A stretch of 64,000 bases of DNA from Numidum massiliense (GTDB taxonomy: Bacteria > Bacillota > Bacilli > Thermoactinomycetales > Novibacillaceae), in the NCBI RefSeq assembly GCF_001375555.1, contig NZ_CTDZ01000009.1, positions 1,977,758 to 2,041,757 of the forward strand. The letters run 5' to 3'. Positions 22,938 to 34,731 of the stretch are shown piece after piece (position 1 is the first letter of the stretch; each line of letters begins with the position of its first letter). The position numbers were made by a program, and so were the translations under genes. The notes under the pieces were generated by a model. The model was not told where the DNA came from and made no database searches. It saw only the letters and a program-made list of their open reading frames with translations.

Positions 22938-24011
22938 TCAGTTAGCGACTGTACGACTCACCTTCCGTACGACCGGACTCACCCAATACCCCGTCACCCG
23001 CGCCAACACACATAACCCGATCCCCACCGCCAAAAACACGAGGCCAACCGGCAACGCCCCGTACGTCGCCCCGACGATGAGAAATTCAAGCGCCAACCCT
23101 TGAATGCGCTGAAACGTCGCCCGATCGACCGCCGCTGCCCAGCGCGTCTTGCCGAGCAACAGCTGCACGATTAAACCCCCGACCATCGCCAGCGGGAACA
23201 ACGGCATCCCCGCAATCCACTGGCCGATCACAACTTGCATCCCCCAACCGATCAAAATCGCTAGCGAAATTAGTGCCGCATGAAAGGCAAATGACTCAAT
23301 GGCATCTTTATTGAGCGTCACCTTCGCCCCGACAGACTGCTTGTCCCGCGGCAGAAGGTCGCCTGCTTGTGTCACCTTCAGCTCCTGCACATTTTTTACG
23401 ACCGACGTGTACCCTTTACGCACCCCGTAGTTAATGAGGATCATGCCGACGACAATACCGACGAGTAGGCCAACCGTCGCCGACGTCATCCCGAGCGGCC
23501 CTCCGTCCGACCAACCGAGCGTGTCGAACACGTCGACCATCCCACCGGCCGTCCCGTGCCCGCCGGAAAACCCGATTTCCACAATGGATCCAAACATCCC
23601 GTTCACGTCCCACAACGGCGTGAGTAGTAGCGCCGTAAGGATAAACGGGATCGACACTTGCAGACACTCACCGATATACCCGAAATAAAGCTGTGGCATA
23701 ATGATATTGCCAACCTTTTTCGGATTGGGCACCGTCATCCCCATCAGCATCGGCGCAAACACAACGGTGATGAGCGCCCCCGGCAGTGCCCCCCAACTTT
23801 CCGTCATCTCGGCGGGCAACACCCCTAATCCGTACGGCCCGAGCACGAGCCCTAACGTTCCCGCGATAAGGGCAGCGGAAATGAAAAACTTCTGAAACAG
23901 CTTCACCTTCACGCGCAAAACCACCCCGACGAGCAACAACACCCCTAACACCGCCACGTAAAACAACAGCGTCTCTACGTTGGCGGACGTGATTTTTTCC
24001 GATGGAAACAC
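22938..24011 (-). CDS. sodium/glutamate symporter (GltS) family membrane protein
   Basis: Polytopic membrane protein of 357 residues with about ten hydrophobic segments. Family features are the glycine-rich GFSGGHGTAGGMVDVFDTLG and MTVPNPKKVGNIIMPQLYFG. The N-terminal portion is shorter than in E. coli GltS. The start is GTG at 24011, seven bases after GGGAGGAA; in-frame sequence upstream to 24173 is not protein-like. The truncated cyclodeaminase gene follows, so the two may once have worked on the same amino acid. Substrate is uncertain. Confidence 0.82.
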   Translation of the reverse strand: MFPSEKITSANVETLLFYVAVLGVLLLVGVVLRVKVKLFQKFFISAALIAGTLGLVLGPYGLGVLPAEMTESWGALPGALITVVFAPMLMGMTVPNPKKVGNIIMPQLYFGYIGECLQVSIPFILTALLLTPLWDVNGMFGSIVEIGFSGGHGTAGGMVDVFDTLGWSDGGPLGMTSATVGLLVGIVVGMILINYGVRKGYTSVVKNVQELKVTQAGDLLPRDKQSVGAKVTLNKDAIESFAFHAALISLAILIGWGMQVVIGQWIAGMPLFPLAMVGGLIVQLLLGKTRWAAAVDRATFQRIQGLALEFLIVGATYGALPVGLVFLAVGIGLCVLARVTGYWVSPVVRKVSRTVAN

Positions 24012-24380
24012 GAAAAGATTCCTCCCAATAAGTGATGATGTTTCCTTAAAATGAGCGCGCCAACTGAACGTCCACACGTCTCTGTTTATAGACCCCTTTG
24101 TGATCGTGGTTTTGTTAACGATCCTTGAACGTTGCAGCCTTTGCTTGCACGCTGTTTTCAACCCCGTTACCAAACTTGATAAACCGTTAACCCGTTGATA
24201 GGTTGACCTGCAATATGCAACGAACGCTTTGCCTTTCTGACCTTACCGATTGCAGTGACTCATTATCGTGACACATCGCTATGACAGATCATGCCCACAG
24301 ATCACTGCTTTAATTTGTGATTTCCGATTTGCTACTTATCGCTCTACCCATCGCATCCCCCCTTTCCCTTGATCCACGGC
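24012..24380. other. intergenic, no gene seen
   Basis: Upstream region of the GltS-type gene. No convincing -35/-10 pair or open frame with a ribosome binding site. The stretch ends at the repeat copy starting at 24381. Confidence 0.4.
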
Positions 24381-24523
24381 TAACCATTTCCAATGAGTCA
24401 TTCGTTGTTCATGAAAGATTCCTGTTACAACGCACCAGTTTGTTTAGTTCAGCAACACACCAATCGTCGACTTTTGTTAAGTAAAAAAGCGCGACGTGGC
24501 ACTGTAACGCGTGTGCCGTTTTT
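24381..24523 (-). pseudogene. 3' fragment of a small XRE-type regulator gene (repeat copy 1)
   Basis: About 143 bp that closely match 25228-25375, the 3' end of the intact small regulator gene. On the minus strand it reads AHALQCHVALFYLTKVDDWC and continues VAELNKLVRCNRNLS to a TGA. The intact copy has one extra base after LFYLT and stops early, so this fragment keeps what looks like the older, longer C-terminus. The part coding for the helix-turn-helix is absent. The same DNA can form a GGCAC/GTGCC hairpin flanked by A and T runs, so it may also serve as a terminator. Confidence 0.55.
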
Positions 24524-24541
24524 ATACAAAACGTATAAAAA
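24519..24541. promoter_or_regulatory. perfect palindrome, candidate operator
   Basis: TTTTTATAC, five bases, GTATAAAAA. It lies about 160 bp upstream of the XRE regulator gene at 24702, and further TTTTTATAC-like half sites occur at about 24560. It could be the binding site of that regulator. Confidence 0.35.
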
Positions 24542-24701
24542 CAAACGTTTAACCCATACTTTTTATACATATAGAGTAAGTAGTGGTTCTATATTAATTC
24601 TTCGTTATGTATAAGTCAAGCTATATTTGTACTTTTTGTATATTTTTCTCATCACGTTTATTCCATTGTCTACAATACGAAGAAAGAGGAGGTAGATTTA
24701 G

Positions 24702-25112
24702 ATGGAACTTGGCGATAGATTACGATTATTGCGGGAAAGACAAGGCTTAACCCAGCTCGCTCTCGCAAACAAGTTACACCTCCCAAATCAAAATATTTCT
24801 AACTACGAGCGTGGTTTCAGACAACCAGATTATGAAACCCTTCAGTTATTGGCCGATTTTTTTGATGTTACGATTGACTATTTAATTACTGGTCAAGAAG
24901 ACAAAAGGACTTGTACAGTTTCCGTTGCTGATCAAGTGGTCGAACTTACGGTAAACGAGTATAAGTTACTCCTCGAAATGAAAAAACATCCGGAATTTGA
25001 AGCATTGCTTCACGAACTTTCCAAGGAGCCTGAACGCAATATTAATAGGCTCATTAGAATGTGGGCTTTTATTAAATCCGAATTGGAAATGGATCAGCGA
25101 GAAGAAGGATAA
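24702..25112 (+). CDS. XRE-family transcriptional regulator
   Basis: Protein of 136 residues. The N-terminal helix-turn-helix (about residues 5-60: LRLLRERQGLTQLALANKLH, ISNYERGFRQPDYETLQLLA) is a standard Cro/CI type, followed by DYLITG, a hallmark of SinR/ImmR-like proteins, and a helical C-terminal half. ATG follows GAGGAGGT by eight bases. It is flanked by the two copies of a 145-bp repeat, so it may have come in by a duplication or insertion event. Probably represses its own promoter. Confidence 0.9.
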   Translation: MELGDRLRLLRERQGLTQLALANKLHLPNQNISNYERGFRQPDYETLQLLADFFDVTIDYLITGQEDKRTCTVSVADQVVELTVNEYKLLLEMKKHPEFEALLHELSKEPERNINRLIRMWAFIKSELEMDQREEG

Positions 25113-25227
25113 CCGTTTAACCCTGTACTCGTTATCCCCCCTTACTTCATCGACCGTTGTTGCTATTGTTTACTTAACTATGTATAAATTGTTTTTTATG
25201 AAAGCCATATTTATTTCAATCTATAAC

Positions 25228-25375
25228 TAACCATTTCCAATGAGTCATTTGTTTTTCATGACAGTCCGCTACTACAAACGCACCAGTCTGTTCAGTTCAG
25301 CGACACACCAATCGTCGACTTTTCGTTAAATAAAAAAGTGCGACGTGGCATTCTAACGCGTGTGCCACTTTTTTT
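25228..25375. repeat. repeat copy 2 (matches 24381-24523)
   Basis: About 145 bp with roughly 85 percent identity to copy 1 by eye, both starting TAACCATTTCCAATGAGTCA and ending in the GTGTGCC hairpin plus T run. Same orientation. The two copies bracket the XRE gene 24702-25112. Confidence 0.85.
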
Positions 25376-25509
25376 GCCGTTTCCTTACCCGGAGTTTTGC
25401 TGCCGCTTTCAATTTGCGAGTAGTAACTGCGGGAGATTCCGGCAAGGCAAGCGACGTGTTGTTGGGTTAGGCCTTTGGACTTGCGTGTGTCGATAAGCCA
25501 TTGGCGCAT
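25297..25509 (-). CDS. small XRE-family regulator with frameshifted C-terminus
   Basis: Protein of 70 residues from the ATG at 25509, seven bases after GAGGAGG. It is mostly a helix-turn-helix (MRQWLIDTRKSKGLTQQHVA, GISRSYYSQIESGSKTPGKE). The last 24 residues are coded inside the 148-bp repeat (copy 2, 25228-25375). Compared with copy 1 there is one extra base in the A run of the LFYLTK codons, which replaces a longer C-terminus by SRRLVCR and a stop. The HTH is intact, so the protein may still bind DNA. The gene end also forms a hairpin with AAAAAAGTG / CACTTTTTT ends. Confidence 0.7.
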   Translation of the reverse strand: MRQWLIDTRKSKGLTQQHVACLAGISRSYYSQIESGSKTPGKETAKKVAHALECHVALFYLTKSRRLVCR

Positions 25510-25551
25510 GGGAGAGCCTCCTCTTCTCACTGTGTGGTATAGAATCGAATG

Positions 25552-25564
25552 ACCAATTATTGGT
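25552..25564. promoter_or_regulatory. palindromic candidate operator
   Basis: Perfect ACCAAT-T-ATTGGT, 43 bp upstream of the small XRE gene on the minus strand and in the divergent region facing the next XRE gene. Probably an autoregulatory site. Confidence 0.4.
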
Positions 25565-25802
25565 TATGATAGGATAGAGCACTAGAGCACCTTATACAAT
25601 CGTGATCGAAACCGTAAATAATAAATCCTAACGCATTTAGTCGAATTGATAGACGCGTATTCTTTAGATACTAACTACGTGTGGTCAACTTACGTTTATT
25701 ATATTGAATCATACTCAATTCTCCAACACATAAGTTGGATTAAATTCATAAATTACATCGCATCAGTCTTTCCGATATGATTAAAGATGAATATCATTCA
25801 AG

Positions 25803-26120
25803 TTGGTGACTCCAGTGATTGAAGTTGGAAAACGAATTAAAGAGTTACGCGAACAAGCAGGTCTTTCTGGCCGTATGCTGGCTAAACTAGCTAAACTTGA
25901 TCCGTCACAAATTTCAAAAATCGAAAACGGTGCAGCCAAACCATCTTTAGATGCGTTGGATCGGATATGTCAGACGTTAGACATTACAATTTCGGAATTT
26001 TTTTCTACAGAATCTGATCCTCTGCCTCCCGACCTAGTTCAACTATTGAAGACAACTAAGCAACTGACACCGGAACAGAGAAAGTTGTTAAACGAACTTT
26101 TAAGGTCGTTTGAAAAGTAA
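25803..26120 (+). CDS. XRE-family transcriptional regulator
   Basis: Protein of about 105 residues. HTH at residues 8-62 (IKELREQAGLSGRMLAKLAK, PSQISKIENGAAKPSLDALD), then a helical tail KTTKQLTPEQRKLLNELLRS typical of small phage or element regulators. The exact start is uncertain: TTG at 25803, GTG at 25806 and GTG at 25815 are in frame and none has a strong ribosome binding site. It is divergent from the small XRE gene and precedes a VbhA-like antitoxin gene. Confidence 0.85.
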   Translation: MVTPVIEVGKRIKELREQAGLSGRMLAKLAKLDPSQISKIENGAAKPSLDALDRICQTLDITISEFFSTESDPLPPDLVQLLKTTKQLTPEQRKLLNELLRSFEK

Positions 26121-26283
26121 TGTTAGATGAATCTTAGAGGGAATGCGGATAAATGTGGGAATTTATAAAGGTGCAATGTGATGAAAACGAATAGCCGCAA
26201 ACATTTTTAGCTCGCCACAAAAAGAACGAAATGACAATGGCGCGGTTTGAATAATTATGTTATTCATAAAGGATGATGAAGAA

Positions 26284-26466
26284 ATGAATAAATATTGTGT
26301 TGCCAATACTACAAAAGCCGAAAGAGAAAGATTTGTTGCTAATGCTGAAGCGATTAACGCTCTCGGAGCTGAACCATTAACGAAAGAAAATCGGGCTTTA
26401 TTACAAAGCTATATTGATGGTGAAAATGAAATTGATGAAGTGTTGCAAATGGTTATTCTTAAATAA
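26284..26466 (+). CDS. VbhA-like antitoxin domain protein
   Basis: Small protein of 60 residues, start ATG at 26284 eight bases after AAAGGATG. The pattern RERFVANAEAINALGAEPLT followed by LLQSYIDGENEIDEVLQMVI fits the three-helix VbhA family of antitoxins that inhibit Fic toxins. No fic gene is present nearby, so it is an orphan or acts in another role. It may be cotranscribed with the 24-residue frame that follows. Confidence 0.5.
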   Translation: MNKYCVANTTKAERERFVANAEAINALGAEPLTKENRALLQSYIDGENEIDEVLQMVILK

Positions 26467-26564: not shown

Positions 26565-26639
26565 GCGTATTTCTCTATATTCCTGCCATCTAAAAGGACA
26601 CAACAAAAAACCTCAAAAATTTTTCCGTTCCTAGCAGGA

Positions 26640-26680
26640 ATTTCCCATTCCTCGTCGAATGATTCTACTAACCGATATTT
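26640..26680. repeat. conserved upstream element of receptor cassette A
   Basis: Contains TCGTCGAATGATTCTACTAA, closely similar to 28368-28418 and 30961-31011. It lies 25-65 bp before the receptor start, where a promoter or autoregulatory operator would be expected. Confidence 0.6.
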
Positions 26681-26705
26681 CTACCAGAGAATGGGGGTTA
26701 TTGAA

Positions 26706-28031
26706 ATGGGGATCGATCCGATCACGCTGGGAGCACTCATCCGTAAACGCCGCAAAGACATGGGGCTGACATTGAACGATCTGGCAAGTGACAGCATTTC
26801 CGTTCCGACGATCAGCAACATCGAGCGCGGCATCACGGGCAATCTCGCCAGTGAGAAGGTCGCCTACATCCGTGAAAAACTTGAATTAACGGACGAACTG
26901 GTTGAAAAAATGCTGAAGACAACAGAAGAGGAGGACGAGCGCCTCGCGAGAGAAATCGCTAACGTGAGGTACTTAGCCGGGCTAAATTTACTTAGTGAAG
27001 CGCGCCAAGCAGTAAGCGCTTTAGAAAACGATGACAAGTTAGGCGATTACCCTCGTTACGCGACGACAACCCAACTGCTGAAGGGGATCGTCTTGCGCAA
27101 ACAGGGGCAGTACGAGAGAGCTAAGAATGCGTTCCAGCAGGTATTGCGCCTCCTACGCGAAGATCCGCTAGATGAGCCGAACAACCTCGCTGCCGAAGCG
27201 TACTTTAATTTGTCCATTATCGCGGCATTGGACGATCAGGATTACGGGAAAGCAATTGAGTATGCGGAGATGGCGCTCGACGTGTTCCAGAATGATGGCG
27301 ATGAACTGCAGCTAGAAGGACATGTGCTGTACAATATCGCAAACTATCACTTCCATCTGGAACAGTATGGCCAAGCCTACAAATATGCCATCGATGCGAG
27401 ACCGAAATGCGAACAACACCATGACACGAAGACCTTCCTATTGACGTTCAATATCGAAGGGTTGACGCTTTCTGCACAGCATTTGTACAGCCGGGCAGCA
27501 AAAGTATTTCGGAAGGCGATTAACTTGTCGCGATCGTATTACGCCGATCCGTGGCTTGGCAGCATTCTCTATCTTAACTTGGGTGACACGCTATACCGTG
27601 AGAAAGCGTATGAGCAATCGTTGCAATGTTACGATATTTCCTATAGGCTTTGTAAAGAAACGAAAGACGAGCATCAACGCGCCACACTTTATTATTCTTA
27701 CGGCGAGGTCTATCTCGCAATGGGGGAATACGAACGGGCAACAGAATTCGCGGATAAATCCTTCGAGCTTGCGAAAAAGTTTCACTTCACTTCAGAGTAT
27801 TTACCGCTTCTGTTGCTGAAGGCGAATATTGCCCTAGAACAAGGCTCTACTAAAGTAACAACTCTGTGCGAAGAAGGGATTCGCCTTGCTGAAAAAAGCC
27901 AGTTGTTCAACAAAATGAAGGACTTTCATTTCGTTTTGGCGAATTACTACGAGAGGTCAGGCAACAAAGAAGCATTTCATCAACAAACGCAACATATGTA
28001 TCAGGTAGAATCTTTAATTCGCGGGAGGTAA
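26706..28031 (+). CDS. RRNPP-type quorum-sensing receptor (HTH plus TPR), cassette A
   Basis: Protein of 441 residues. An XRE-type HTH at residues 1-60 (LGALIRKRRKDMGLTLNDLA, SVPTISNIERGITG) is followed by about nine TPR-like helix pairs (for example ALDVFQNDGDELQLEGHVLY, KAYEQSLQCYDISYRLCKET, ATLYYSYGEVYLAMGEYERA). This is the architecture of PlcR, NprR and related regulators that bind a processed secreted peptide in the TPR groove. I use the ATG at 26706, eight bases after GGGGG; an in-frame ATG at 26691 has a weaker site. A short secreted peptide gene follows after 5 bp, as expected for a cognate signal. Two broken paralogous copies lie downstream. Confidence 0.88.
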   Translation: MGIDPITLGALIRKRRKDMGLTLNDLASDSISVPTISNIERGITGNLASEKVAYIREKLELTDELVEKMLKTTEEEDERLAREIANVRYLAGLNLLSEARQAVSALENDDKLGDYPRYATTTQLLKGIVLRKQGQYERAKNAFQQVLRLLREDPLDEPNNLAAEAYFNLSIIAALDDQDYGKAIEYAEMALDVFQNDGDELQLEGHVLYNIANYHFHLEQYGQAYKYAIDARPKCEQHHDTKTFLLTFNIEGLTLSAQHLYSRAAKVFRKAINLSRSYYADPWLGSILYLNLGDTLYREKAYEQSLQCYDISYRLCKETKDEHQRATLYYSYGEVYLAMGEYERATEFADKSFELAKKFHFTSEYLPLLLLKANIALEQGSTKVTTLCEEGIRLAEKSQLFNKMKDFHFVLANYYERSGNKEAFHQQTQHMYQVESLIRGR

Positions 28032-28036
28032 ACGTT

Positions 28037-28183
28037 GTGAAAAAAATCATCGCTTCAGTCGTCGTAATTGCCGTCTTAGTCTTGCCCATGACTGCGTTTG
28101 CCGGTACGAGAGCCCCAATTGTGATGTCGCACAGCATCGGGGTAGATACTCCACAGGAGTATAAGCTCCCAGACAACAAGTAG
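28037..28183 (+). CDS. secreted signalling pro-peptide of cassette A
   Basis: 48 codons starting GTG, seven bases after GGAGGT, 5 bp after the receptor stop. It has a positively charged start (KKII), a hydrophobic core (ASVVVIAVLVLPMTAFA) with an AFA cleavage motif, and a hydrophilic C-terminal part of about 26 residues ending VDTPQEYKLPDNK. Size, position and layout match Phr/NprX-type precursors, from which a short C-terminal or internal peptide is released, re-imported by an Opp transporter and bound by the receptor. Which residues form the mature signal is unknown. Confidence 0.8.
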   Translation: MKKIIASVVVIAVLVLPMTAFAGTRAPIVMSHSIGVDTPQEYKLPDNK

Positions 28184-28308
28184 CGTAGAAGTAACGTTGA
28201 ATAAAATATCCACATGCTAATTAATTCCGCAGCATGAGAGGGTTAATGGACATATTGGCTTAATACATTATTTAACGCTCAACACCTTTATGTCCTACAA
28301 CTTGTGAT

Positions 28309-28353
28309 CCGTAAAGCGAACAGTGTATTAGTCGTTCGCTTTACGGTTTTTTC
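28309..28353 (+). terminator. Rho-independent terminator of cassette A
   Basis: Perfect 13-bp arms CCGTAAAGCGAAC / GTTCGCTTTACGG with a 12-base loop and TTTTTT. Confidence 0.93.
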
Positions 28354-28367
28354 TGTGGCCTTGACTA

Positions 28368-28418
28368 CAGAAGGTGTTTCACACCTCTCCGTCGAATCCT
28401 TCTACTAACAATACTTTT
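28368..28418. repeat. conserved upstream element, remnant of cassette B leader
   Basis: Near identical to 30961-31011 (CAGAAGG.GTTTCACACCT, CCGTCGAATCCTTCTACTAA). It holds an inverted repeat AGAAGG / CCTTCT. No receptor start follows it here because the 5' half of cassette B has been replaced by other genes. Confidence 0.75.
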
Positions 28419-28480
28419 GGCTCATTGTAAAATGGAATGCAACAAAAGAAAAAAAGACAAGCCACGGTTATAACATCCAA

Positions 28481-28963
28481 TTAGTATTCGGGACTGGATA
28501 AATCCGTGACATCGCAGTTATTTAACAAAATTTTTTTTAGAAAGGATAAAGCTTCCACGGTGACCACTAATTCACCTTTTGGTGATAGACAAAAATGGTG
28601 ACCAGACCAGTTTTTAAAGGTCTCCCCTTCAATATCTACCGTACCAAGAGGGATAAATCTTCGAAAGGGAGGGAGTTCCCTATCCGGATATAGTTCATGA
28701 AATGCATCGGACGTTGTAATCAAGCAATCCTCTAATCGATAATCTCTAAAGGTACTCTCTACCAATTTTTCCTCTAATTGTTTCGAAATTATGAAACATG
28801 GAGCTGACTCAAGAAGGTCGTCCCCGAGCCACCCTTCAAATTCATAATGTAAATAGTTTACCTTATCAGATACGCCTTGCACTGCACCATCTTTAACTGT
28901 TCCATATACTGTCTTCTCTCCATGTCCACCCGCTACTTCAGGTTCCAAAAAGTACAAGTTCAT
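28481..28963 (-). CDS. immunity protein, Imm43-like
   Basis: Protein of 160 residues without a signal peptide. The segments LHYEFEGWLGDDLLESAPCF and LYPDRELPPFRRFIPLGTVD resemble Imm43/Imm11-type immunity proteins of polymorphic toxins. There is no good ribosome binding site before the ATG at 28963, and an IS110 remnant begins only about 12 bp upstream, so the original promoter and toxin were probably lost. It sits in the cargo that replaced the 5' half of receptor cassette B. Confidence 0.55.
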   Translation of the reverse strand: MNLYFLEPEVAGGHGEKTVYGTVKDGAVQGVSDKVNYLHYEFEGWLGDDLLESAPCFIISKQLEEKLVESTFRDYRLEDCLITTSDAFHELYPDRELPPFRRFIPLGTVDIEGETFKNWSGHHFCLSPKGELVVTVEALSFLKKILLNNCDVTDLSSPEY

Positions 28964-28974
28964 TTACAGTTAAT

Positions 28975-29313
28975 AGGCAACAAATCATCCGCTTGGCAGG
29001 GTTGGATCTCAAAGAGAATAGCTCAGGCAAGAAGAAGGGGAAAACGGGTATTAGTAAACGAGGACGTGCAAGGTTACGTGCCCTGCTATTCCGATGGGTT
29101 CTCCCGATGGTCGCTAAAAATGCCGAGTTTAAAGCGATGCATCGTTACTACACGACACGTCGTCACAATCCCCTGAAAAAGAAGTAATCGCTTATTGCCT
29201 TGTGCTGCAAACTGATCAAAGTTCTGCATACGCTCGGTACGAGGCAGATTGCGTATGATGCGAAGGATGTTCTGGGTCCAGTGCGCCAGCAACAGTTACA
29301 GATGGCTGCTTAA
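28975..29313 (+). pseudogene. 3' remnant of an IS110-family transposase
   Basis: Reads IIRLAGLDLKENSSGKKKGK, ISKRGRARLRALLFRWVLPM, then a nonsense TAA after NPLKKK and, in the same frame, LIALCCKLIKVLHTLGTRQI to the natural stop at 29311-29313. This is the C-terminal Transposase_20 region of IS110/IS1111 transposases. The N-terminal RuvC-like domain is absent and one sense codon has become a stop, so the element is dead. Confidence 0.85.
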
Positions 29314-29482
29314 AACGAATTAGCCAATCGTCGTGTGACCTTAAGTTTTTCCGTAGTATCATAGCATAATGACTGGGGGAATATGGAACTTAGTGGAGGA
29401 AGTCATTTGTCCGTGTATTAATCAATAATCTAAAACATTTAGGAGAATATAAACCCCAATACCATTAATATTGTATTAACAA

Positions 29483-29846
29483 TCACTGCTTTACGATTGT
29501 TAACTCCCCTATATTGCTAAGATCAAATTTCGATTTGCCTTTGTTTTCCTTAAACCATTTGGCTAACAACGTATCGTACAGCATGTAATGCCGATATTCC
29601 TCTATTGTACGCTTCGTGATGCCGTGTTTCTTAAGGAATTTTGTAACTTCATACGGCCTTTCGATAATAATGCCATCCCCATTGGCATTTTCAGTGTAGA
29701 TTTTAATTGGTAATTCCTTCAACTCCTTATTATTAGCATGATACTCAACGTTTAACTGCACACTTATCCTTTTAGTAACTTCTTTATTATAACTTAGGAA
29801 TATTTTCCTTTTGCTTTTGTAGAAATATATATTATAACTATCCCCT
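29483..29846 (-). pseudogene. C-terminal fragment, TipC-like immunity protein
   Basis: About 118 codons without a start; the frame upstream is antisense to the receptor cassette B fragment and not part of the gene. Readable segments KIFLSYNKEVTKRISVQLNV, IIIERPYEVTKFLKKHGITK and RHYMLYDTLLAKWFKENKGK recall the C-terminal half of TipC-family immunity proteins. The junction with cassette B is at about 29846. AT-rich compared with flanking receptor DNA. Confidence 0.4.
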
Positions 29847-30561
29847 AGGACATGTGCTGTACAATATCGCAAGCTTTTACTTCCATTCGGAGCAGTACGG
29901 TCAGGCATACAAATATGCCATCGACGCACGCGCAAAATGCGAACAGATGCACGACATGAGGGTTTTTCTATTTACGTATAACCTAGAAGCACGGACACTC
30001 TCAGAACAGCACCTTTACGACAAGGGCGTGGAAGTTTTTAAGAAAGCGATTAACTTGTCCCGTACACGCTACCCAGACCCATGGCTTGGAAGTATCTTGT
30101 ATCTCAATCTAGGCGACACGCACTACCGTGACAAAGCGTACGAGCAAGCGCTACAGTGTTACGATATCGCATACAGACTGTGCAAAGAAACAAAAGACGA
30201 GCAACAGCGCGCCACTCTTTATTATTCGTACGGTGAGGTCTATCTTGCAATGGGAGATGTAGAAAAGGCGACTGATTATGCAGATAAAGCTTTCGAGCAT
30301 AAGAAGAAGTTCCGCTACAACTCGGAGTATTTGCCGCTTCTGTTACTAAAAGCGAACATTGCGCTGGAACAAAACTCTTCCGAGGTCGCATCCATCTGCG
30401 AAGAAGGTAATCGACTAGCGGAAACAAGTAAGTTGTTCTCCAAAAAGAAGGACTTTCACTTCGTTTTGGCGAATTACTATAAGCGGACAGGCAACCGAGA
30501 AGCATTTCATCAGGAAACGAAACATATGTATGATATAGAATCATTAATTCGCAGGAGGTAA
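29847..30561 (+). pseudogene. RRNPP-type receptor, cassette B, 3' fragment (TPR part only)
   Basis: Starts abruptly at a point matching 27317 of cassette A and reads LYNIASFYFHSEQYGQAYKY through nearly the whole C-terminal TPR region to LIRRR. It is clearly paralogous to cassette A (identical stretches such as GSILYLNLGDT and ATLYYSYGEVYLAMG). The HTH and the first TPRs are missing, replaced by the segment from about 28420. An internal ATG at 29854 without a ribosome binding site could give at most a TPR-only protein. Confidence 0.88.
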
Positions 30562-30566
30562 ACGTT

Positions 30567-30692
30567 GTGAAAAAAATTATCGCCTCAGTCGTCGTAATTG
30601 CTGTCTTAGTCTTACCCATGACTGCGTTTGCCGGTGGGAGAATGCCTGTTGTGGAGAATCACCAAGCGTATGTGCATATAGACAGCAAGTAG
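30567..30692 (+). CDS. secreted signalling pro-peptide of cassette B
   Basis: 41 codons, GTG start with GGAGGT seven bases before it and 5 bp after the receptor fragment, exactly as in cassette A. The first 23 residues (KKIIASVVVIAVLVLPMTAF, then AG) are the same as in peptide A, but the remaining C-terminal part (GRMPVVENHQAYVHIDSK) is different. The signal would therefore differ. It can still be translated if a promoter reads through the truncated receptor; no intact receptor partner remains in the window. Confidence 0.75.
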   Translation: MKKIIASVVVIAVLVLPMTAFAGGRMPVVENHQAYVHIDSK

Positions 30693-30792: not shown

Positions 30793-30845
30793 AATAATCC
30801 GATGGGCGGACATGTATTAGCAGTCAGCTTATCGGATTATTTTTG
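30793..30845 (+). terminator. Rho-independent terminator of cassette B
   Basis: Perfect 11-bp arms AATAATCCGAT / ATCGGATTATT followed by TTTT, about 100 bp after the peptide gene, the same relative place as in cassette A but with unrelated sequence. Confidence 0.85.
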
Positions 30846-30960: not shown

Positions 30961-31011
30961 CAGAAGGAGTTTCACACCTCCCCGTCGAATCCTTCTACTA
31001 ACAATACTTTT
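30961..31011. repeat. conserved upstream element of cassette C
   Basis: Near identical to 28368-28418 and similar to 26640-26680. It precedes the HTH part of cassette C by about 20 bp, confirming that the element belongs to the receptor 5' region. Confidence 0.75.
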
Positions 31012-31028: not shown

Positions 31029-31412
31029 GGGGTCATTGACAGGGAGATCAATCCGATCACGCTTGGTTCACTTATTCGTAAGCATCGTAAGGACATGGGG
31101 CTGACATTGAACGATTTAGCAAGTGACAGCATTTCCGTCCCAACAATCAGCAATATCGGGCGCGGCATTACGGGCAACCTAGCCAGTAAGAAAGTGGCTT
31201 ACATCCGTGAAAAACTCGTGTTAACCGACGAAAAAGTACATCAGCTGCTAAAGAACACCAAAGAGGAGAACGAACGCTTCGCACAAAAAATCGCCAACGT
31301 TAGATACCTAGTTGAGCTAAACCTGCTAAGTGAAGCGCGTCAAGAGATAAGCGCTTTACAAGCTGACGACAAGTTAGGCGATTATCGGCGTTACACGACG
31401 ACGATACGTCTC
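31029..31412 (+). pseudogene. RRNPP-type receptor, cassette C, 5' fragment (HTH and first TPRs)
   Basis: Matches cassette A from its codon after the first ATG (GVI..., INPITLGSLIRKHRKDMG, LNDLASDSISVPTISNIGRG) to DYRRYTTTIRLSL, then joins the 3' end of a DUF6119 gene. Both candidate start codons are lost (ATG changed to TTT and AGG); the next ATG is at 31095, inside the HTH. The conserved E of NIERG is G. Its TPR half and peptide gene are missing, so the cassette is dead. Confidence 0.88.
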
Positions 31413-32941
31413 TCACTCTTTGTAACTCAACACCACCTTTGGGATATACCTTGCATTTATCACTTGACGTCTCCATTCGTTAATTTTCATTAAGAATATT
31501 AATGACTTGAAATCAGCCAAATTATTAACGTCACTTTTTCTATCCAAAATCAACCATATGCAGATACATTTTGGTACAATAGATTTGGAATCAATCTCAA
31601 TGCACCTTCTGTTATCCTGAAGATACTTCACAGCGGCTAATGATTGATCGATAACATAATTCAATTTTTGTGGTGTGCCTATTTTCACAAAGTACAATGT
31701 TTCATCTTTATATAGATCCGTGATCTCAAGTTTAAATTTATCATATTTTGTAATATCCCTATCAAGATTTCGGTATCCGACACCTTTAGCAATCACTTCA
31801 TTAAAATACCTCTCTGCATACCACTTTTTTTCTCTTCCTCACTCAATTTACTCTTCCATACTTTATATTCCTTTGAGTTGAAATTAAATTCTTTTCTGAC
31901 CTCAAATTCAATGTTGGAAACACTATTGATTAAGTAATCAACATAATTATCATTGAATTTAACCCATTTATCATCCTGTAAAAAATAATTATCCTCATCT
32001 ATATAATCGATGAAATATTTTAACCTCCTTGTGAATCCTTTGTTACTTTCATCGACAGCTTTGATTTTTATATCATTGATTGATTCGACTGATAGTTCTA
32101 TACCTGCCCTCGAAATAACCTCTGTTAAATCTTCTATTGATCCGTCCACGTCAATTTCAAAGTTCCTCCTACCATTTAAAAATAATGAGTATTCTTTAAG
32201 GAATACAAATTCTACACCCGATAAATCCTGTGTTTCTATATTCAATATCAAGTTGTTGTTGATCAAATTATCAACTAACCGTTTATCCAGCTCCTGTATT
32301 TCTTTTTTGTCCTGTACTTCAACGGCATACGGAATAGCGAATCGTGGCTCCTTCTTTAATTCTGATTCCAAGGCCTCTATGAATTCTGGTAGATCTGTTG
32401 GCCGCATATCCTTAATGTTAAATGTTACCGAATTACCACAATCTATCTTCTTCCCCCATTTTTGGTCTGTCGTCTTTCCCTTAAGAAAGTTTATCGCTTC
32501 GCCGCTATCTACCTCTATGGAAGTATTACTCTGATACGTGACAATGCTTTTTCTCCTAGAGCCCCCAAATAATCTCGAATTCTTCATGTCGATATGATTG
32601 TCGTCAATTAGCCGAGTGCCAATTTCAATGCCAAAATCCAGCTCACAAAACTCCTTTAAGTAAAAATGAGTTTTTCCCAAACTAATGACATAACAATAAT
32701 CATCACATGTGATTACTAATGCTCCAAAATAGTTTTGATTTGCTAGTTCATTACTCCCACTAAAGAAATCTTTATATAAATCTGCCCACCATATAGACGA
32801 TGAGCTCTTCGCAAAGTAAAAACACATTGAAACACCATTTAATTTTTTATCACTTGAACGCTCTAAACCTACGGAACTAAACTTTTCGGCTAGGTCTATC
32901 TCTCTTTCTTTCTTTATCTTGTAAAGGTTGAACTTGTACAT
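31413..32941 (-). pseudogene. DUF6119 (TIGR04141, sporadically distributed) protein, one frameshift
   Basis: Two overlapping frames form one gene: 31793-32941 (N-terminal 382 residues; RLFGGSRRKSIVTYQSNTSI, SGEAINFLKGKTTD, CGNSVTFNI) and 31413-31796 (GVGYRNLDRDITKYDKFKLE, VKIGTPQKLNYVIDQSLAAV). One extra A in the seven-base A run at 31825-31831 would restore EEEKKKWYAERYFNEVIAKG across the join. The family has no certain function and is often found near restriction and defence genes. It is AT-rich and sits beside an hsdR fragment. The ATG at 32941 has a GGAGAGGAT site. Frameshift could be a real mutation, slippage or a sequencing error. Confidence 0.75.
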
Positions 32942-33012: not shown

Positions 33013-34731
33013 CTACACCCCCTCACTCGCCATCAATTCCGCCTGCTTCACCACCGTCTCTACCGCTTTCTTCTGCAAGTCCGGTGGGTAGCCGTACTCC
33101 TTCAACAGCCGGCGTACTGTGATGCGCATTTTGGCGCGGGACGATTCGCGGAGGTTCCAGTCGATGCTCATGTTCGCTTTGACCGCCTTCGTCAGTTCGT
33201 GGGCGATCAGGCGCAGTTTTTCATCGCTCATCACTTCTTGCGCCGATTCGTTCGTCGCGAGAGCGTCGTAGAAGGCGATTTCTTCGTCGCTCAGACCCGC
33301 TTCTTCGCCCCGCTTGTAGGCGGCGTTCATTTCTTTCGCTAACTCGATCAGTTCTTCGATTACTTTGGACGTTTCGATGGTGCGCTTATTGTATTTGTTG
33401 ATCGCGTCTTCGAGTAGCTCGGAAAATTTCTTTGCCTGCACGAGGTTGCGCCGCTGAATGTGTTTCACTTTCCCTTTTAGCAGACGGTTGAGTAGTTCAA
33501 CGGCGACGTTTTTGTTCGGCAAGGCGCGCACTTCGTCCAAAAACTGGTCCGACAAGATGGACAGGTCGGGCTTGTCCAAGCCGAGTGAGCCGTAGACGTC
33601 GACGACTTTTTCGGAGATGATCGAGTTGGACAGCAGTTGGTTAATTTGCGACTCGACTTGGTACAGTGTTTGTTTATCTTTTTTGCCTGCGGGCAGCAGT
33701 TTGACGATGCCGCTTTTGACCGCTTTAAAAAAGCCGATTTCTTCGTTCAGTTCTTCCGCTTCGGGCGTGGTGGCGCACAAGGCGTACGCTTTCGCCAGTT
33801 CGGTCACGAGGCGGAGGAACTCTTTCTTTTCTTCTTCGCCGCGGCCGATGACGAAGTCGACGGTTTCGACGATCGCTTGCATCCGTTCGGTCGGTTTGTC
33901 GGACTGGAACTTTCTGTAGTCGTGCCGGTAGAGCATGTCTTGGACGATTTCGAGTTTTTCCAGCATAAGGTCGACGGCGACCGATGTGTCGATGCCAGCG
34001 TTCGCTTTGTCGCTGTCGGTGTACTGTTTGAGCGCCTCTTTTAACATGTCGGCGATGCCGATGTAGTCGACGACGAGGCCACCCGGTTTGTCGCGAAAGA
34101 CGCGGTTGACGCGGGCAATTGCCTGCATGAGGTTGTGGCCACGCATCGGTTTGTCGATGTACATCGTGTGCAGTGACGGGACGTCGAAGCCGGTGAGCCA
34201 CATGTCGCGCACGATGACGAGTTTGAGCGGGTCGTCGTTGTCTTTCATCCGCTTGGCGAGTAGTTCCCGCCTCTTTTTGTTGCCGATGTACAGTTGCCAA
34301 TCCGCCGGGTCGCTGGCGTTGCCGGTCATGACGATTTTGATGACGCCTTTTTTGTCGTCGTCGGAATGCCAGTCGGGGCGGAGAGCAACGATTTCTTTGT
34401 ACAGGTCGATGGCGATGCGCCGCGACATGACGACGATCATTCCTTTGCCGAAGAGCGCTTCTTGCCTTTTTTCAAAATGGGCGACGATGTCGCGGGCGAG
34501 TGTGTGGACGCGGTCTTTTGCCCCGGCGAGCGCTTCCAAGCGCGACCACTTCGACTTCAGCTTTTCCCGCTGCATCGACTCTTGGTCTTCCGTTATTTCT
34601 TCGTAATCGTCGTCGATGGTGATGTCTTTCGGCATCGCCAACTTGACGATGCGGCTTTCGTAGTAAATTTTTACAGTGGCTCCGTCGGCAACCGCTTGCG
34701 TCATGTCGTACACGTCGGTCAGCGAACATTA
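33013..34731 (-). pseudogene. type I restriction endonuclease HsdR, C-terminal fragment
   Basis: About 570 residues of a protein that is normally about 1000. Present: the second helicase domain ([56 protein letters not shown]) and the helical C-terminal region. Missing: the N-terminal nuclease and the Walker A/B part of the motor. The frame starts just after a TAA at about 34732 without a start codon, at the sequence [20 protein letters not shown]. No hsdM or hsdS is in the window. It cannot restrict DNA. Confidence 0.9.

Follow-up and report, generated by a model that had tools for sequence, protein, structure and literature searches.

A proposed chromosomal family of RRNPP-type receptor-pheromone operons in Numidum massiliense with probable sequence exchange between paralogues

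The analysed stretch of DNA (the window) comprises 64,000 nucleotides of a contig of Numidum massiliense, a species that NCBI assigns to Bacillaceae, and contains receptor A, peptide A, a receptor fragment (B), peptide B and a further receptor fragment (C), all in the same direction and on the forward strand. Receptor A (26691-28031) is an intact protein of 446 aa with HTH_3 and TPR domains. It is preceded by a sigma-H-like promoter at 26634-26660 (GCAGGAATT-N11-GTCGAAT; RNAGGAWWW / RNNGAATWW is given as the sigma-H consensus in the available text of PMC8510167). The gene for the 48-aa precursor of peptide A follows at 28037-28183; it has a GTG start and a ribosome binding site that overlaps the receptor stop codon. 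A terminator-like hairpin with a T run is located 3' of this gene (28309-28352).

Copy B begins with a promoter remnant (28366-28422), which resembles the promoter before copy C and matches neither the strict nor the relaxed sigma-H pattern. Codons 1-209 of receptor B are replaced by foreign DNA (28423-29847). Because this stretch holds a 160-aa ORF of no recognised family (28481-28963, reverse strand), a scrap of an IS110 transposase gene (28993-29187, forward strand) and a TipC-family immunity gene (29483 to about 29840, or to 29935, reverse strand; NCBIfam E 1.7e-19) that has lost its own N-terminus at the junction, an insertion followed by a deletion fits what is seen. Only the C-terminal half of receptor B is left, as an open frame corresponding to A codons 210-446 (29848-30561), followed by the gene for the 41-aa precursor of peptide B (GTG start; 30567-30692) and a second terminator-like hairpin with a T run (30793-30845). 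Copy C has a promoter with a relaxed sigma-H-like match (30963-30990) and an N-terminal receptor fragment (A codons 2 to about 129; about 31029-31415), which breaks off at approximately codon 129, next to a TIGR04141 gene and a type I restriction gene that is itself truncated. Since the receptors of B and C are truncated, A alone in the window forms a complete system; copy B, with its 5'-truncated receptor, is no working pair, and what is left of B and C is the broken remainder of a tandem array.

Both peptide genes lie where the sequence-only reading had placed them, and in both the GTG start is preceded by the same GGAGGTAAACGTT, overlapping the receptor stop. Their first 23 residues are identical, as had been reported, with four differences, all of them silent, in the first 66 bases; the likeness of the receptor 3' ends was also borne out (85% DNA identity over codons 406-446). 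The view that the mature parts are unrelated and diverge completely has to be given up. Aligned in frame, the tails agree at 9 of 19 residues (GTRAPIVMSH.......QEYKLPDNK in A and GGRMPVVENH.......QAYVHIDSK in B, the dots marking a 7-codon indel), and the alignment score of 30 compares with a shuffle mean of -10.5 (P=0.0002). The two tails are therefore diverged, with a 7-codon indel, and not unrelated. A frameshift as the source of the tail difference was excluded, as the match lies in the common reading frame and negative scores were obtained for the two others.

Receptor A matched the Pfam HTH_3 model over residues 17-49 (29.3 bits, cut-off 23), and Pfam TPR models were matched as well. NprR was the RRNPP member reached by a sequence profile of the receptor (4gpk, 5dbk; E 8e-6, profile positions 295-428 only). 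An AlphaFold2 model was built from a three-row alignment (mean pLDDT 71), in which residues 1-77, the HTH region included, are unreliable (pLDDT <50). Its fold matched RapI (Z 23.7), NprR (Z 22.6) and PlcR (Z 17.6), and eukaryotic LGN/Pins (Z 24.7), tied with the RRNPP members, was among the strongest matches. The modelled fold fits an RRNPP assignment without proving it; the assignment is made because of the domain order and the neighbouring peptide. On these grounds, A and B are placed in an RRNPP-type pheromone-receptor family, as putative functional kin of NprR and of the Alo systems of Paenibacillus.

Searched against its own genome, receptor A gave 21 matches. Eight loci carry an open receptor with a peptide gene (A, L002, L003, L004, L005, L007, L010, L014), four a broken or partial receptor with a peptide gene (B, L006, L008, L018), four an open receptor without a peptide of this family (L009, L012, L015, L017) and five a receptor fragment without a peptide (L013, L016, which is copy C, L019, L020, L021). 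In L006 there is a stop near the receptor end and the peptide starts with CTG; the receptor of L008 has an internal stop, and that of L018 is a 3' fragment. A small adjacent gene for a putative secreted pro-peptide, secretion being judged from sequence alone, is found at 12 of the 21 receptor-family loci. A peptide profile detected 12 strong loci in the genome, every one of them behind a receptor or a receptor 3' part, and no free-standing peptide gene. Proline occupies tail position 5 in 11 of the 12 peptides (position 6 in the twelfth) and the last residue is lysine in all 12 (permutation P=5e-5 in both cases). The occurrence of 12 such peptides, each directly behind a receptor, supports the proposal that A and B are precursors of signals, in which the export part is constant and the part carrying specificity varies.

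Two further arrangements were observed in this genome. A receptor 3' end with its peptide (L018) and a receptor 5' end (L019) are separated by 0.2 kb and oriented head to head on opposite strands (G000:C9:186434-187091), which appears to be the mark of an inversion or rearrangement. On the reverse strand, right behind the distant receptor of L017 (28% identical to A), a 31-residue ORF missed by the peptide profile ends in YPIVM, which recalls PIVM of peptide A.

The distribution of the family was examined across the order. In the one other genome of the taxonomic family that was covered, from a sister genus (G001), the profile detected three clear peptides, two of the three with proline at position 5 and none of the three with a terminal lysine, and no clear match was obtained in the 19 further order-level genomes (19/19). 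A crude peptide scan, which is blind to peptides of another type, found mostly none behind the receptors of 26 other order-level genomes (1.5 kb flank) and of G018 and G028. Distant HTH-TPR receptors are abundant, with a match in 41 of 41 genomes. By these searches, the peptide-receptor family is clearly detectable only in this genome and in one sister genus. A contig scan of named relatives yielded 12 loci, of which only that of Baia soyae is from this order; the rest are mostly HTH-only and from Alphaproteobacteria. In another genus of the order, a receptor is followed by a candidate peptide ORF (L036:2783-2998) with four NPGEY repeats, resembling multi-copy pheromone precursors. Phage and plasmid origins were considered and rejected: receptor A had no match in 50,697 phage records, none of 46 pattern hits in viral contigs (IMG/VR) was confirmed, and its seven plasmid matches were all cyanobacterial TPR proteins with less than 30% identity.

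The receptor precedes the peptide gene in 12 of 12 cases, most of them behind a sigma-H-like promoter, and in most copies the ribosome site of the peptide overlaps the receptor stop. Terminator-like hairpins were located 3' of 9 of the 11 peptides examined, those of p4, p5, p7 and p10 being weak or badly placed; none was found after p14 and p18. Of 18 receptor starts (16 readable ones from this genome, remnant B and one G001 receptor), 11 have a strict sigma-H-like site (RNAGGAWWW-N11-14-RNNGAAT) at a distance of up to 170 bases upstream, compared to 13 of 2896 background tiles, which include the receptor sites themselves. A receptor-specific operator was also considered for the conserved upstream element and rejected. 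The element agrees with the sigma-H consensus, and of the eight sites that a tighter motif hits in the genome, two precede unrelated genes, whose ORFs look by eye like a glycosidase and a citrate synthase. Such placement would be expected of a sigma factor but not of a private operator. From the promoter sequences we infer that sigma-H drives the receptor-peptide operons.

The condition of copy B raises the question of decay, to which the sequence-only reading had itself pointed as a possible refutation. The frameshift part of that objection falls away, while decay of copy B as a unit is borne out to the extent that its receptor is broken and its peptide ORF intact. That the tail of peptide B is itself a product of decay, the peptide being a drifting pseudogene, is possible though rather doubtful. 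The 5' truncation of receptor B would favour it, as would the position of the promoter, approximately 1.4 kb off behind foreign DNA, but the tail is in frame and retains Pro5, the histidine and Asp-x-Lys-stop, and both the ribosome site and the terminator are kept. Equally different tails are found in other intact pairs, and the truncation may be recent.

Silent sites revealed a patchy divergence between paralogues, which in the receptor core approaches saturation. Between A and B it is 0.28 in codons 211-226, 0.66-0.82 in codons 227-404, 0.21-0.27 in codons 405-446 and 0.24 in the signal; same-residue codons are identical in 42 of 51 cases in the 3' flank and signal compared to 68 of 131 in the core (P=9.8e-5). 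The tandem copies R6 and R7 have zero silent divergence over codons 1-135, i.e. the 5' third (126/126 same-residue codons identical), and 0.35-0.69 in the core (80/131; P=3e-18). For R2 and R3 the corresponding counts are 113/128 in the 5' part and 54/107 in the core (P=1.3e-10). With P values that are uncorrected and come from 45 non-independent pairs, the flank-versus-core pattern was seen at P<0.05 in nine of the ten pairings of A, B, R2, R3 and R4 (the exception being R3-R4, P=0.17) and in 7 of the 35 other pairs, including A-R5, A-R8, B-R5, R2-R10, R3-R5 and R7-R8, none of them stronger than 0.0012. A permutation test of silent-site segments gave P=0.0003 for segments 30-126 (R2/R3) and 17-216 (R6/R7) and P=0.0033 for the run 399-422 (B/R3); for A/B alone it was not significant (P=0.91-0.93).

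A tree of the 5' part groups R2 with R3 as sisters (100/99). In the core they stand apart, the AU test of this splitting being borderline (p 0.079 for DNA, 0.041 for protein), and R6 and R7 remain sisters in the core, so that for R6/R7 an old duplication followed by conversion does as good a job as import of a cassette. Since selection at the protein level cannot yield such silent patterns, recombination or gene conversion between paralogues is the best reading of them and would account for part of the alikeness of receptor ends and signals. The common signal of A and B may reflect homogenisation as well as constraint; since the signal of R2/R3 has diverged at silent sites (0.71), it may have been converted or may merely be young.

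Part of the low divergence at the 3' side may be due to constraint, as codons 426-446 have somewhat low silent divergence even against R8 (0.21-0.38 in several pairs). That the common receptor end and signal are owed as a whole to constraint on silent sites (ribosome site, coupling, mRNA structure) instead of recombination is quite unlikely, since in codons 405-425 the divergence is low only among A, B, R2, R3 and partly R4 and R5 (0.09-0.55; R3/R4 0.71) and mostly 0.6-1.1 in other pairs, and the 5' identity of the tandem pairs is left unexplained. A scenario of duplication alone, in which selection diversifies the mature peptide and purifies the signal and recombination plays no part, is very improbable: it agrees with an A/B tail pN in excess of that of the receptor core (0.37 vs 0.10-0.21) and with a signal pN of 0, but selection on proteins cannot give R6/R7 zero silent divergence over codons 1-135 next to a core at 0.35-0.69, and the A/B tail omega of 0.95 is not above 1.

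The diversifying selection that had been proposed from the first look at A and B is not demonstrated. The mature parts have pN 0.366 and pS 0.379 over about 19 codons, and as copy B has no intact receptor, the A/B pair is a poor witness for such selection. In most other tail comparisons silent sites are saturated and the tails are short (16-35 residues), which precludes a test of positive selection. Core distance and tail distance are correlated over 10 systems (Spearman 0.71, Mantel P=1e-4), a value that falls to 0.41 (P=0.026) with L014 added. It should be noted that in nine systems the N-half tracks the tail about equally well (0.66, compared to 0.67 for the core); the core-tail correlation is therefore evidence of common descent at least and of coevolution at most.

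Drawing on the family, its gene order, the promoter matches and the mosaic silent-site pattern, we consider it likely that A and B belong to a chromosomal family of RRNPP-type pheromone-receptor operons with sequence exchange between paralogues. In each operon a sigma-H-like promoter would be followed by the HTH-TPR receptor, a secreted pre-pro-peptide coupled translationally to the receptor stop, and a terminator. Secretion, maturation, binding and regulation are drawn from analogy with NprR, PlcR, Rap and Alo: the precursor would be exported by Sec, cleaved after AFA and trimmed further, and the short peptide would be re-imported, bind the TPR superhelix and alter DNA binding by the receptor. 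Each pair would have its own signal on a common plan, with proline at tail position 5 and lysine at the end. Recombination or gene conversion would keep two segments common to copies, the 5' part of the receptor on the one hand and its 3' end with the signal peptide on the other, and leave the TPR core and the tail divergent.

A bolder extension is that this is a cassette system rewiring social signals, in which the output module (promoter and HTH) and the joint (receptor 3' end and signal peptide) anchor recombination around two linked variable parts, the TPR core and the message peptide, B-like partial copies (core half and peptide, without HTH) act as silent donors, and the neighbouring restriction/BREX genes are possibly under cell-density control. 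We regard it as unlikely; if true, the signal heard and the signal sent would change in one event with the target genes unchanged.

The three multi-copy receptor loci each adjoin restriction-type defence genes (L088:11466-16997, L090:11367-16310 and window positions 33013-34713): next to R6/R7 are BREX PglX and BrxC, next to R2/R3 a type III restriction-modification pair, and next to A/B/C the truncated type I restriction gene. By eye, a transporter-like ORF (MFPSEKITSANVETLLFY...) and small HTH genes were noticed near R10, R2/R3 and A (L083, L090 and window positions 22938-26466), as was an ORF starting MFAHELLYLSQSD near R10 and R2/R3. These common neighbours suggest duplicated segments.

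How specificity changes in paralogous signalling pairs without cross-talk is an open question, on which this family bears. Its dozen or so pairs have diverged to different degrees and carry clear exchange tracts, so that one can ask directly whether the receptor core and the peptide move together; R2/R3 and R6/R7 are natural chimaeras, with a common DNA-binding half and a different sensing half.

The NprR-NprX system of the Bacillus cereus group is alike in that a secreted pro-peptide is encoded behind an HTH and TPR receptor whose length is similar. Residues 80-441 of the receptor model align with NprR at approximately 13% identity in the structural alignment; no NprX sequence was found here. 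NprR is known as one system per genome, in contrast to the at least eight open pairs in N. massiliense. For the AimR-AimP systems of phages there is a weak likeness, peptide B matching the AimP_fam model below its cut-off (E 0.0054, 16.9 bits, cut-off 35) and peptide A giving no match to it.

The diversity of RRNPP systems has been described (available text of PMC9765709, PMC10075063, PMC7425212 and PMC5199041). Compared by description, the AloR-AloP systems of Paenibacillus likewise form a large paralogous set in which an HTH-TPR receptor is followed by a secreted peptide, with 16 paralogues in P. polymyxa and at least 27 in P. terrae, some peptides being absent or degenerate (PMC7425212, available text); among the described RRNPP systems this set is the nearest in scale. 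The available text does not use the word 'recombination' and names no promoter class, which sets the Alo description apart from the present case. Rap-Phr of Bacillus is also multi-copy, with the receptor followed by the peptide and a diverging signal specificity, but Rap has a three-helix N-terminal domain and no HTH. In the accessible part of PMC5199041, changes of Rap-Phr specificity are attributed to horizontal transfer and peptide duplication, with no evidence of Rap divergence via recombination between homologues, unlike the recombination read here. A literature search, mostly of journals open without subscription, found nothing on pheromones of N. massiliense or on gene conversion among receptors of this type. 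Systems of this kind are already known; the swapping of pieces between receptors, as read from their sequences, appears to be an unusual and testable evolutionary pattern.
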